Source of the DNA: Pinguiococcus pyrenoidosus
Taxonomy: Eukaryota; Sar; Pinguiophyceae; Pinguiochrysidales; Pinguiochrysidaceae
Direction of reading: 5' to 3'
DNA length: 30,331 bases
Assembly (NCBI GenBank): GCA_019677205.1
Contig: JAAMXY010000368.1
Coordinates: 1 to 30,331 of the forward strand
The notes under the pieces were generated by a model. The model made no database searches. It was not told where the DNA came from and worked only from the letters and a program-made list of their open reading frames with translations. This document shows, one piece after another, positions 6,967 through 21,161 of the stretch (position 1 is its first letter; every line of letters starts with the position of its first letter). Made by a program: the position numbers and the translations under genes.

Positions 6967-9176
6967 ATGCGCCGTCCCTGGGGCGACATGGGCTCCCTGC
7001 GGAGTCGCGCGGCCGGAGCGGCGCCTGCGCCGAGCTCTGCGGCGCTGGTGAGTTCTTGTTTGCGCCCGCTAGTGGCGCTTCTTCGCGCGCGACTAATGGG
7101 CTGCTGCTTGTCCGGCCATGGTTTAGCGCTGCTTGGTGCTGAGCGGCGCCGTGTTCTTCGCGTGTCCGGACAATGTGGACCGCGCCACGCCGGCGCAGTA
7201 CCGAGTGGCCAAGAGCCTCAGCTCCAACAAGGACTACGCGCTGGTCTTCTCGGACGAGTTCGAGACCGACGGACGGCGCTTCGACGACAACAGCGAAGAG
7301 CACTGGAGCGCGCTGAGCAAGCCGGACCCGGACCTGGGCGCGGTGCACTTCTACAATTCGTCTCCAGATTTCGTGTCCACGCTGGGAGGCAAGCTGCTGC
7401 TGCGCCTGCGGGCGCGCCGCAGCAGCTGGCAGGAGTGGGACCCGTGGGCCCGCCGGGTGGTCACCATGACTCGGAATTACACCTCGGCCATGGTGACCAG
7501 TTGGAATCGCTTCTGCTTCACGGGCGGCATCATCGAGCTGCGGGTGCAGCTGCCCGGCGACGCCTACGGCGGCGGCCTGTGGCCGGCGGCCTGGCTGCTT
7601 GGCAACCTGGCTAGGCCGACGTATCGGGAGACGACGGACTATGTCTGGCCCTGGAGCTATGACAAGTGCGACGAGCTGAGCCGGAGTGCCCAGCTGATCA
7701 GCGCTTGCCGGCCGGCGCCGAATGGGGACCTGCGGGACGAGGCGTCCAACGACTTCGAGTCGACCCGGCCGCACACGCCGCCCGGCGGCGACATGGACAG
7801 GAGGCGGCTCACCGAGATCGAGGTGGACGAGAGCACGGGGCTGAAGCCCTACCATGGCCGCGGCGCACCAGAAATAGATATTTTTGAAGCGATGGCAAGT
7901 TGGACGCCGGACAAGTACGTGACAAACGAGGCGCTGCTTGGAAGCTGCCGAGGCGGATCTGGAGACCGGTGTGTGCTAACCGTCCTTGGTCCCGTCCGTT
8001 GCAGGCCGCCGAATATGACCACGACTCTCAGTGTGTCGCCCGGCGTGGAGCACCATCGTCCGATCCCGGGCAGCCCGCCGGACGAGGAGCACATCTGGTA
8101 CAACGGGTTCGAGTTGCCGATCAACTCGTCCGAGTCAAACTCCGACTACTACGGCTTCCGATCGGGGGGCGAGGCCAAGTACTGGGCGGACGCGCTGTCG
8201 GCGCGGCACGTGCTAGGTGAAGAGCACTTTGGCGGCCCGCAGCTTTTCAGGGTAGAGTGGGAGCCGCCCGGAGTGGGCCTCGGGTACATCCGCTGGTACC
8301 TGAACGACCAGGAGATCTTCGGGATAGACGGGCACACGCTTGATGGCGTAACGGGGGCGAGCATCCCCTTCGAGCCGATGCAGATCATCTTGAACCTGGC
8401 GATGCACAATTTTTGGGGCCAGCCTCAGCCTTGCGATCATAAGAAGTGCCAGGCGTGCTTTGGCTGCCTCGATTGCAAGAACGAGGACTGCCAGTGCGCG
8501 CTGCCGCCGCTGCTCAAGAACTGCCAGGGCCTGCCGGCGACCATGGAAATAGACTACGTTCGGATCTATCAGGACCCTGATAACCAGCATCATACCGTAG
8601 GATGCGATCCGAACTACTTCCCAACCAAGGAATACATAAACTTGAACCCGAAGATCTACAAAGACTGGGAGCCGCGAGGGCGACCGCCGCTGAGCGTGTT
8701 CATTCGGGTCGTGTATTGGCTGACCCTGATCGTTGTCGTCGCCTCCTTTGGATTCGTGCTGGTGAGGTACCTCAGCAGGCGCTTCTGCTCGGAGTACGAG
8801 TGGGTTCCCGGTCGTTCGCCCGATGGCAATTCGCCGAGGCTGCGGTTTCGACGGTCGCAGGTATGTCCGGCTGCCAGCTGCCAGGATGCTTCGAAACCTG
8901 TTGGGCCGTTTGCTGATTTCGCCGCTTCTCTCTGGCACGCAGCGGCCTCGACTACGCCCCAGCGGAGGATCTCATGGGGCTCTTCAGGGCTGCCTGAAGT
9001 GGTTCGAAAGGCACCACAAGGAGACACGTAGAGGACCCCTCAGAAGTGCTGACGAGGAAGACTCGCCCTTGATTGACGCACAGTATGACGACCCCAACTT
9101 TCGCGACAGCCCGAATGATCGCGGTGCGAAGTACATTAGCCTGGCGGACGTCATGTACGAGGAGAAATACAGATAG
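6967..9176 (+). CDS. GH16 KRE6/SKN1-type beta-glucan synthesis/transglycosylation enzyme
   Basis: Family members act in the secretory pathway in beta-1,6 glucan assembly or branching of beta-1,3 glucan. Exons: 6967-7047, 7127-7914, 8005-8860, 8943-9176 (652 aa). The 7048-7126 intron is GTGAGT...TTTAG, the last is GTATGT...CGCAG. The 90-nt intron 7915-8004 (GTACGT donor, CTAAC branch, TTGCAG acceptor) is stop-free and a multiple of three; removing it fuses WTPDK to PPNMTTT. The GH16 catalytic motif EIDIFE is at about 276-281 (nucleophile E276, D278, acid/base E281). Also seen: GGLWPAAW, FRVEWEPP, MEIDYVRIYQ and a Cys-rich loop (CQACFGCLDCKNEDCQC), all SKN1-like. A membrane helix is near 521-545, followed by a tail of about 105 residues. 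Yeast Kre6 has an N-terminal anchor; here the clear anchor is C-terminal. Substrate is inferred from family. Confidence 0.9.
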
Positions 9177-12602: not shown

Positions 12603-13704
12603 NNNNNNNNNNNNNNNNNNNNNNNNNNNNNNNNNNNNNNNNNNNNNNNNNNNNNNNNNNNNNNNNNNNNNTTCGGCCATTCTTCGTCCTTCTCTTTCTT
12701 GGGCGACCACTTCCAGTAGTTCTGGATCTCCTTCCAGATGTCCTCCGGCACCCGCATCTTGCGGAACCCCACATCCGTGAAGTGATTCTGTGTCTTCGGC
12801 TGATTGACGTTCATCTTGATGCGCTGGTCGTCGACAGCTCGGCAAGAGCGCCGGTCGTATCTCTTGTAGCATCCCTGGATGAAGTGTCCGTAGCTGCGCT
12901 CAAAGACGGTGCCGCAGGAAGCTGGGCACACCCTGCGGACCTTCTCATACTCGCAACCGCCTTCGTTGTACGCCTTGGTGCACTCTTCATAGTTTTCATC
13001 CTCTGCAAACTGGTTGTGAATGGGCCAGCTGACGTCGAAGGAGTAGTCCGGCGCCTCCTCCACCCTCTCCTCCACCCTCTCAGGCGGCGTGTAGCTCCGC
13101 TGGTACATTTCTTCGCGGCTGCTCGCGGGCTTCTCCTTGGCTTCTTCCTCCTGTGACTCCTCTTGCTTTTCCTCCGCATCCTCCACCACTTCGACGAGCT
13201 CTTTCTCCGCCGCTTCAGGCACTTCGTCCGCGGCCTTCTCGGGTTGGACCTGCAGCTCCTTGGGCTTTTCGACCTCGGGGCTCTCTTCCGGCGCTTCTTC
13301 TTCCTTCGGCGTCGTCAGCTGATTGTCGCGCACAGGCTCGGGCTCGATGGGGTCCGCCGCGGCCTTCGGCTTTTCGCCTTTCTGGTTGGGCGGGAAGTCG
13401 GCGTCCGGCACGAAGCGTCGGCGGCTGTGCATCTCGTGGCGCCGGCCCATGAGGTTCGCCTCTAGCTTGCGGTGGAGCTCCTCGTCGATCTCGGGTGCCT
13501 TGCGAGAGGAGGCGGAGCCGAAGCGGTTGAGCATGACCAGGCCAGTGGCCATCAAGCAGATACCCTAAGGAAGCGAAGAGACCCGACGAGGGCTTAACGG
13601 CGAAGACATCAGATGTCAAGAGCTTTCTCGTGGCTTACGACGACGACCAGAGACAGTTTGCCGTTAGCATCTCTCTGGGATTTGGACTTGGCTTTGGACT
13701 TCAT
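12025..13704 (-). CDS. Prolyl 4-hydroxylase-like 2OG-Fe(II) oxygenase, type II membrane protein (assembly gap inside)
   Basis: Exon 1 (13704-13639) and exon 2 (from 13564) join across a 74-nt phase-0 intron (GTAAGC...CTTAG), creating the membrane anchor LSLVVVGICLMATGLVML. Next come an acidic Glu/Pro-rich stalk and a Cys-rich ShK-like segment (CTKAYNEGGCEYEKVRRVCP). Exon 2 reaches EEWP beside a 69-N gap; exon 3 (12506-12025) resumes at GNIYVNHWEVPTYMV. The missing intron lies in the gap plus a (CT)n tract ending in GGTAG. Oxygenase core: SHCDRLPLVSSAIIN (HxD iron motif), a distal His in VHGRPFPLKGRYY, and a basic residue for 2-oxoglutarate. Known relatives hydroxylate proline in the ER or Golgi; the substrate here is unknown. 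A few residues at the exon 2/3 junction may be hidden by the gap. Confidence 0.88.
12537..12602. repeat. (GA)n microsatellite bordering the assembly gap
   Basis: About 33 uninterrupted GA units on the plus strand, running straight into the N block. On the coding (minus) strand it is (CT)n, just before the 3' splice site of the oxygenase gene's second intron. Confidence 0.97.
12603..12671. other. Assembly gap of 69 N
   Basis: Run of unknown bases within the intron of the oxygenase gene. Its true length is unknown. Confidence 0.99.
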
Positions 13705-16085: not shown

Positions 16086-16093
16086 AAAAAAAA
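16086..16093 (-). terminator. Pol III terminator (T8) of the permuted tRNA gene
   Basis: Eight A on the plus strand, so TTTTTTTT on the tRNA strand, 20 nt after the end of the tRNA 5' half. An oligo-T run is the normal RNA polymerase III stop signal. Its place after the 5' half shows that the permuted unit is transcribed as one RNA. Confidence 0.85.
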
Positions 16094-16113
16094 CCTGCGC
16101 GGCCAAGTTGAAG

Positions 16114-16208
16114 TAGAAGTCCGACGCGCTATCCATTGCGCCACTAGAGCAGAAATCGCCCGGAAGGAAAAGTACTCTAGACGGGACTTGAACCCGCAAC
16201 CTTCGGAT
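16114..16208 (-). tRNA. Circularly permuted tRNA-Arg(UCU) gene
   Basis: On the minus strand the 3' half comes first (16208-16173, positions 38-73), then a 22-nt spacer (16172-16151), then the 5' half (16150-16114, positions 1-37). Joined 5' half to 3' half, they give exactly 73 nt. Acceptor GCTCTAG pairs with CTAGAGT (six Watson-Crick plus one G-U), followed by discriminator A. D stem is GCGC/GCGC with loop AATGGATA, which includes A20, an Arg identity base. Anticodon stem TCGGA/TCCGA closes loop CTTCTAA (anticodon TCT). Variable loop is AGGTT. T stem GCGGG/CCCGT closes loop TTCAAGT. CCA is not encoded. In linear order no cloverleaf forms. Processing should follow the known permuted-tRNA route: splicing endonuclease joins positions 37 and 38 by circularisation, then RNase P and 3' processing release the acceptor ends. 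Confidence 0.96.
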
Positions 16209-16369
16209 CCACCTCGTGGGGTTGCACCCCAACTTTACCATCCGCAGTTGCCAGGGCGGATTCGCTGCGTATATGAAGGGTCGTTTCAAAGCGTTCAAAT
16301 CCGAGATTCGGTGGCCGTGGTCTCTCTGCGCCGCGCGCTTCTTTGGCTGCTCGTCAGCATGTAGAAGCC
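16209..16369. promoter_or_regulatory. Divergent region between permuted tRNA and EGF-like gene
   Basis: About 160 nt. The tRNA leader includes a strong hairpin (TGGGGT-GCA-ACCCCA, minus strand, about 16218-16232) just upstream of the 3' half. The EGF-like gene's promoter must also lie here. Confidence 0.5.
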
Positions 16370-20893: not shown

Positions 20894-21161
20894 ACCACTC
20901 GGTCACTAGAGCAAGAATGTCCGTCCACGTCCGAAGCAGTTTGATACCCGACAGGGTGTTCCGCAGGGAGGGTCCCTTCCGCGCACATGGCACAAGGCAA
21001 ACTCGGTTGCTTAATTGCTCGTTCTGGCCTGGCTCTCTTGTATGCACATGCGCCACACTCCAGGTCAAGAGCGCGGGTAGAGCTGGCGATCCTATTGAGT
21101 TGCTCTGACTAGCATACGGGACTTGAGTCCTCAGTTCAAAAAAAAGAAGGTGCTCAGTACT
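20894..21161. other. 3' intergenic region between convergent genes
   Basis: About 268 nt between two stops. No gene or clear repeat seen. Confidence 0.5.

Follow-up and report, generated by a model that had tools for sequence, protein, structure and literature searches.

Can a transfer RNA (tRNA) gene whose halves stand in reversed order be a working gene in the nucleus of a stramenopile? The question is raised by a locus on contig JAAMXY010000368.1 of Pinguiococcus pyrenoidosus (GenBank assembly GCA_019677205.1), where the 3' half of a tRNA-Arg(UCU) precedes the 5' half on the same strand. The window is the whole stretch that was analyzed, 30,331 nucleotides (nt) of this contig. Judging from the sequence, we put the probability at roughly 0.86 that the locus is a functional type II (37/38) permuted nuclear tRNA-Arg(UCU) gene of an ochrophyte stramenopile, one that is probably alone in supplying this tRNA from the nucleus.

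The gene order, the stems, the tRNA identity, the promoter-like element, and the T run can be read directly in the DNA. On the minus strand, the order is leader, tRNA positions 38–73, a 22-nt spacer, tRNA positions 1–37, trailer, and a run of eight T residues (T8); the ordinary intron-containing layout, in which the 5' half comes first, is not what is found. When the halves are rejoined, ARAGORN calls the resulting 73-mer tRNA-Arg(tct) with four paired stems, and direct reading finds the conserved residues U8, A14, A15:U48, G18G19, U33, A37, and U54U55C56. CCA is not encoded, with CTTTT following A73. The initial annotation had placed both halves on the minus strand, described the rejoined cloverleaf as faultless, and noted a T8 after the 5' half. 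The coordinates and orientation it gave are correct, both by direct reading and by ARAGORN on the rejoined halves, and the T8 is present, one of two runs of at least eight T on the two strands of the window (the other is at 21138–21145, minus strand). All four stems do pair, but "faultless" is too strong a word for a cloverleaf with two G-U wobbles (G1-U72 and G49-U65). In the window as it stands, ARAGORN finds no tRNA, also when introns of as much as 300 nt are allowed and the sequence is treated as circular, and an Rfam search finds none at gathering thresholds.

Could such a match be accidental? Twelve further tRNAs of this genome (11 considered nuclear, one plastid) were permuted by script, given random linkers, and used to train a covariance model for the reversed order, with the locus itself excluded. 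Over the window, up to an expectation value (E) of 10, the locus is the sole match (74.4 bits, E 1.1e-20). A wider scan covered 280,615 bases from 69 partly overlapping sources, including the window, most of them around ordinary tRNA genes or on organelle contigs. It returned 129 rows to E 10, three of which are the permuted locus at 74.4 bits each. The top decoy is a tandem pair of plastid Val and Thr tRNAs at 40.5 bits; tandem neighbors are the relevant trap for a permuted model, and the locus thus passes, with 74.4 versus 40.5 bits. Mixing the halves of 22 ordinary tRNAs in 462 combinations never gave more than 10 of the 12 pairs in the acceptor and anticodon stems (six cases), whereas the locus has all 12 joining pairs, as do 21 of the 22 ordinary tRNAs in their true pairing (the remaining one has 11). 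Compared with a human tRNA-Arg(UCU), 11 of 21 pairs are the same, seven are changed on both sides, three are changed on one side, and none is broken. The initial annotation had judged chance very unlikely, and both the model scores and the absence of any 12-of-12 case among the 462 mixed halves bear this out. As far as sequence can tell, the locus is a real circularly permuted tRNA gene.

Table 1. Features of the permuted tRNA-Arg(UCU) locus (positions in the window)
Feature	Position	Strand	Length	Remarks
TATA-like element TTCATATACG	16268-16277	minus		69 nt upstream of 3' half
Leader hairpin TGGGGTGCAACCCCA	16217-16231	minus		Precursor fold also has a hairpin here
Leader -7 to -1, GAGGTGG	16209-16215	minus		Two alternative pairings predicted
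3' half of tRNA-Arg(UCU), positions 38-73	16208-16173	minus	36 nt	A38, 3' anticodon stem, variable loop, T arm with B box, acceptor 3' strand, A73
Spacer between halves	16172-16151	minus	22 nt	
5' half of tRNA-Arg(UCU), positions 1-37	16150-16114	minus	37 nt	Acceptor 5' strand, D arm with A box, 5' anticodon stem, C32-A37, anticodon TCT
Trailer after A37, CTTCAACTTGGC	16102-16113	minus		
T8 run, probable RNA polymerase III terminator	16093-16086	minus		20 nt past 5' half

Does the genome hold another tRNA-Arg(UCU)? With the rejoined tRNA as a DNA query, the genome (23.7 Mb in 768 contigs) gives matches only to the two halves. Nine human tRNAs used in the same way gave three matches, and their Arg(UCU) part matched only the 5' half of the locus; such queries are insensitive to diverged copies, as seven of the nine had no nuclear match. 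There is no Arg(UCU) among 29 non-organelle tRNAs, one of which was later judged plastid. An Rfam tRNA search of the genome listed 64 hits with 63 of 331 candidates scored, which makes the inventory a lower bound. The search for a second copy that the initial annotation had proposed thus turned up no other nuclear tRNA-Arg(UCU) within an incomplete inventory. AGA accounts for 26 of 296 Arg codons in seven long, uncurated open reading frames of the window. Because AGA codons are in use, a nuclear tRNA-Arg(UCU) is probably needed. An organelle origin of the locus was considered and is unsupported: the mitochondrial contig, C741, carries its own trnR(TCT) among the ARAGORN calls listed, and this gene is clearly different.

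A gap-free T-arm pattern, run over the genome in a search for further permuted tRNAs, gave 58 hits, compared with 37 for a reversed control pattern, and 28 of the 58 lay away from the tRNA genes then known. Ten of these 28 were examined; the other 18 include most of the likely tRNA genes. At eight of the ten, ARAGORN found no tRNA and the model had no match; these were the less likely candidates, in which the outer T-stem pair is impossible (seven G:G and one C:C mismatch). At the other two, on contigs C289 and C554, the T arm runs into T runs, and these sites are probably where additional tRNA genes of the ordinary kind end, missed by ARAGORN in the short pieces. One pattern scan of viral contigs found no sequence relatives.

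How might a gene with its A and B boxes in reversed order be transcribed? Of 29 nuclear tRNA genes examined, 27 have the motif TATA[CTA] in the 100 nt upstream, versus 14 of 596 background stretches, and 16 have ATATAC there, versus 2 of 596. The background consists of non-overlapping 100-nt stretches on both strands of the window only, with the locus left out. These counts replace earlier ones from overlapping windows that included the locus (64 of 2408 for TATA[CTA], 14 of 2408 for ATATAC, and 5 of 3008 for 9-of-10 consensus matches). In the nuclear tRNA genes, the element has a consensus of about TTCATATACC, chosen after the data had been inspected, and sits mostly 30–70 nt upstream. The element of the locus, TTCATATACG, matches this consensus at nine of ten positions and is the sole match of at least 9/10 on either strand of the window. 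Its position at −69 is within the spread of ordinary nuclear tRNA genes and slightly beyond the 50 bp given for Cyanidioschyzon merolae elements in a review of permuted tRNA genes (PMC3978253). The conservation of the element points to external RNA polymerase III (Pol III) promoters in this stramenopile. A TATA-like element upstream could explain why A and B boxes in reversed order are tolerated; transcription from upstream promoters has been proposed as what lets such reversed boxes persist (PMC3978253). From the occurrence of the TATA-like element on other contigs, we infer that the locus belongs to the same genome. As a general feature of nuclear tRNA genes, the leader hairpin finds no support: at p 0.05 it is present in 4 of 29 leaders, versus 10 of 150 segments of background.

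The placement of these signals also bears on the possibility that the reversed order is an assembly artefact, in which a misjoin put the 3' half before the 5' half or a tandem array collapsed. The assembly is a draft of 768 contigs, and the contig does contain a run of N at 12603–12671. However, the window contains no other such run, and this one lies 3.4 kb from the locus, between the GH16 gene described below and the tRNA. The window yields no further tRNA call, the genome query with the rejoined tRNA gave no intact copy as a source for a collapsed array, and the promoter-like element and T run are placed as a permuted gene needs them. We consider an artefact very improbable.

What would the cell have to do with the transcript? 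We infer transcription, a circular intermediate, cleavage, and charging of the permuted tRNA along the following route. Pol III would initiate transcription on the downstream side of the TATA-like element and terminate at the T8. The transcript would carry the leader and the 3' half, then the 22-nt spacer, and last the 5' half with the trailer. This strand would fold into the four tRNA stems in a permuted topology. The tRNA-splicing endonuclease would then cut after A37 and before A38, and a ligase would join position 37 to 38 to yield a circle, from which RNase P and tRNase Z would remove the spacer. Finally, CCA would be added to the trimmed tRNA. In the unconstrained minimum-energy fold of a 157-nt precursor, all four stems do appear in permuted order. 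The genome also contains nine ordinary nuclear tRNA genes with 37/38 introns and one match to the tRNA-splicing endonuclease family PF01974 (contig C162:11940-12089), whose core is plausible by eye; together, these suggest that the organism splices tRNAs at 37/38.

Several observations weigh against a functional permuted gene. The stability of the precursor is ordinary (z score −0.93; 33 of 200 shuffles as good). In the best fold, an 8-bp helix between leader and trailer buries the splice sites, with GAGGTGGA pairing with position 34 to +4; the trailer CAACTT is complementary to the leader AAGTTG, and this pairing is unused in the best fold. In an alternative, relaxed bulge-helix-bulge, GAGG (−7 to −4) pairs with C32–C35 in a 4-bp helix. 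This fold has the correct 3-nt 5' bulge (U36, A37, then trailer), but its 3' bulge is 4 nt rather than 3, and at −44.5 versus −52.6 kcal/mol for the best fold it is 8.1 kcal/mol weaker. In all nine ordinary introns, position 32 is able to pair with position −3 of the intron, whereas at the locus the residues are C and U and cannot pair; on the sequence of this junction, the impossible 32:−3 pair is the main result against canonical processing. The expected pair appears in the best fold of only one of the nine ordinary introns, and fold energy is therefore a weak test. Among the processing enzymes, a second PF01974 catalytic subunit was not found, where two are expected; RtcB gave no match in a search whose control was positive in 9 of 14 genomes; and a Trl1-type ligase gave no match in a search without a positive control. 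Moreover, the evidence comes from the sequence of one species with an incomplete tRNA inventory.

The spacer also contains a T4, which could end some transcripts. The same is true of the tRNA-Lys(UUU) gene and of the Ile intron in this genome, which have a T4 inside them. A stop within the spacer would suit a split tRNA, that is, two half genes that are joined in trans and are neighbors by coincidence, as would the separation of the halves and their reversed order. However, the halves lie 22 nt apart on one strand, and the TATA-like element precedes and the T8 follows both of them, which makes a split tRNA scarcely credible.

The non-canonical junction fold and the incomplete inventory would also fit a non-functional remnant. 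On this reading, an ordinary tRNA-Arg(UCU) gene was duplicated in tandem, the outer halves disappeared, and what is left is no longer processed, with the true gene elsewhere. Duplication followed by loss of the outer segments is a published route to such loci (PMC3978253). On the other hand, all stems of the locus are intact with no broken pair, and the promoter-like element and T run are in place. An intact copy was found neither by the genome queries nor among the 29 non-organelle tRNAs, and AGA codons are in use. We therefore regard a remnant as unlikely and retain the functional permuted gene as the preferred reading.

How does the locus compare with permuted tRNA genes already described? 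The review counts 34 such genes in six algae and one archaeon, the eukaryotic ones in red and green algae and in a nucleomorph of green-algal derivation, with 37/38 as the commonest junction in green algae (PMC3978253). The type II genes of the prasinophytes Ostreococcus and Micromonas are like the locus in their 37/38 junction and in having the 3' half first. The type II genes in Table 1 of the review have spacers of 5–64 nt, and the 22-nt spacer of the locus also falls inside the 1–74-nt range of permuted tRNA genes generally (PMC3978253). The anticodon is not new, as Ostreococcus tauri already has a permuted Arg(TCT) (PMC3978253). There are differences as well: the 3' junction bulge of the locus is one nucleotide too long, and the upstream region is an ambiguous AT-rich one in green algae (PMC3978253), whereas at the locus it holds an element measured as common to ordinary tRNA genes. 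Prasinophytes are green algae; the host here is an ochrophyte stramenopile.

In C. merolae, as at the locus, a TATA-like element lies upstream of most permuted and ordinary tRNA genes and a T stretch lies downstream; unlike the locus, junctions there also fall in the D and T arms (PMC3978253). The TFIIIC subunits TFC1 and TFC3 were not identified in C. merolae (PMC3978253), whereas in the genome considered here two TFIIIC families are weakly matched (at 26.0 and 25.9 bits, both exceeding the curated cut-offs), the second of which also matches 4 of 14 prokaryote controls and is thus weak evidence. The nucleomorphs of the chlorarachniophytes B. natans and A. amoebiformis carry a permuted tRNA-Ser with the same order as the locus, in B. 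natans of type II (PMC3978253 and PMC4494063). Those cases belong to a relict green-algal nucleus and to another amino acid, in contrast to an Arg tRNA in the nucleus of a stramenopile host. Permuted tRNAs of Auxenochlorella, again a green alga, resemble the locus in that they came to light because a standard tRNA scan was incomplete (PMC12633428).

The arrangement thus fits published type II (37/38) genes (PMC3978253), in keeping with the permuted-gene reading of the initial annotation. That annotation had noted neither two points in favor of function, namely the TATA-like element common to nuclear tRNA genes and the failure to find a second nuclear tRNA-Arg(UCU) within the searchable inventory, nor two weak points, namely the non-canonical junction fold and the spacer T4. 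It had also supposed that the locus might extend the known range, and in openly licensed literature we found no report of a permuted tRNA gene in stramenopiles, an absence that is no proof. On balance, the locus is probably a permuted tRNA gene of type II that functions, in a lineage new to such genes.

The stramenopile look of the surrounding genes, likewise claimed at the outset, holds up in the window itself. A GH16/KRE6-type protein encoded at 7133–9031 is closest, among the best 120 of 239 hits, to a protein of Phaeomonas parva (55% identity), which belongs to the Pinguiophyceae, a group of ochrophytes. The other organism names legible among the matches listed, most of which are nameless, are those of ochrophytes and include Spumella, Ochromonadaceae, Chrysoparadoxa, Triparma, and diatoms. 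An EGF protein adjoining the tRNA has two matches. A search with plastid rpoB gave two close relatives (90% and 86%) and then values of at most 64%, which does not fix the taxon. The run of N adjoins a simple repeat, and the frames flanking it look like parts of one gene, as judged from their translations; the frame tested beside it has no Pfam domain.

Some further observations concern the other tRNAs and the organelles. A DNA query with 20 of the genome's own tRNAs uncovered one more disrupted tRNA, which is not permuted: on the minus strand of contig C411 (58856-58961) lies a Pro(AGG) gene whose halves stand in the usual order around an intron of 34 nt, and which the Rfam tRNA search had not listed. 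The tRNA called Glu(ttc) by ARAGORN at C4:4724-4821 is better read, with a 37/38 intron and the loop CTTTGAA, as Gln(TTG). A37 is usual after U36 in tRNA; the intron-containing tRNA-Ile(UAU) at C445:40817-40920 apparently has G37 after U36, which is odd for t6A modification. Contig C741 was assigned to the mitochondrion by nad11 and a seemingly interrupted cox1, and C763, C750, and C762 to the plastid, in each case with gene names taken from translations by eye. Contig C753 was judged plastid solely from the AT-rich flanks of its tRNA-Asn.

Overall, the locus suggests that the permuted tRNA arrangement arose or persisted in one more eukaryotic branch, and if a stramenopile nucleus does carry one, the known range of permuted genes would grow by that branch. 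How such genes arise, and why most eukaryotes are without them, is left open by the review (PMC3978253). An element common to 27 of 29 ordinary tRNA genes makes an upstream Pol III promoter as the proposed precondition directly testable in a new lineage. The locus also illustrates that standard tools can miss what is apparently a single tRNA gene, as ARAGORN and Rfam were blind here. A broader proposal, which we offer tentatively and hold to be rather doubtful, is that permuted tRNA genes are established and selectively maintained in stramenopile nuclei. The nucleus would then depend on the locus alone for tRNA-Arg(UCU), further tRNAs of this genome would be permuted as well, and a TATA-driven external Pol III promoter together with an endonuclease that accepts the shifted bulge would permit the arrangement. 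If this were true, selectively maintained permuted genes of stramenopiles would represent a third eukaryotic origin after those of red and green algae.
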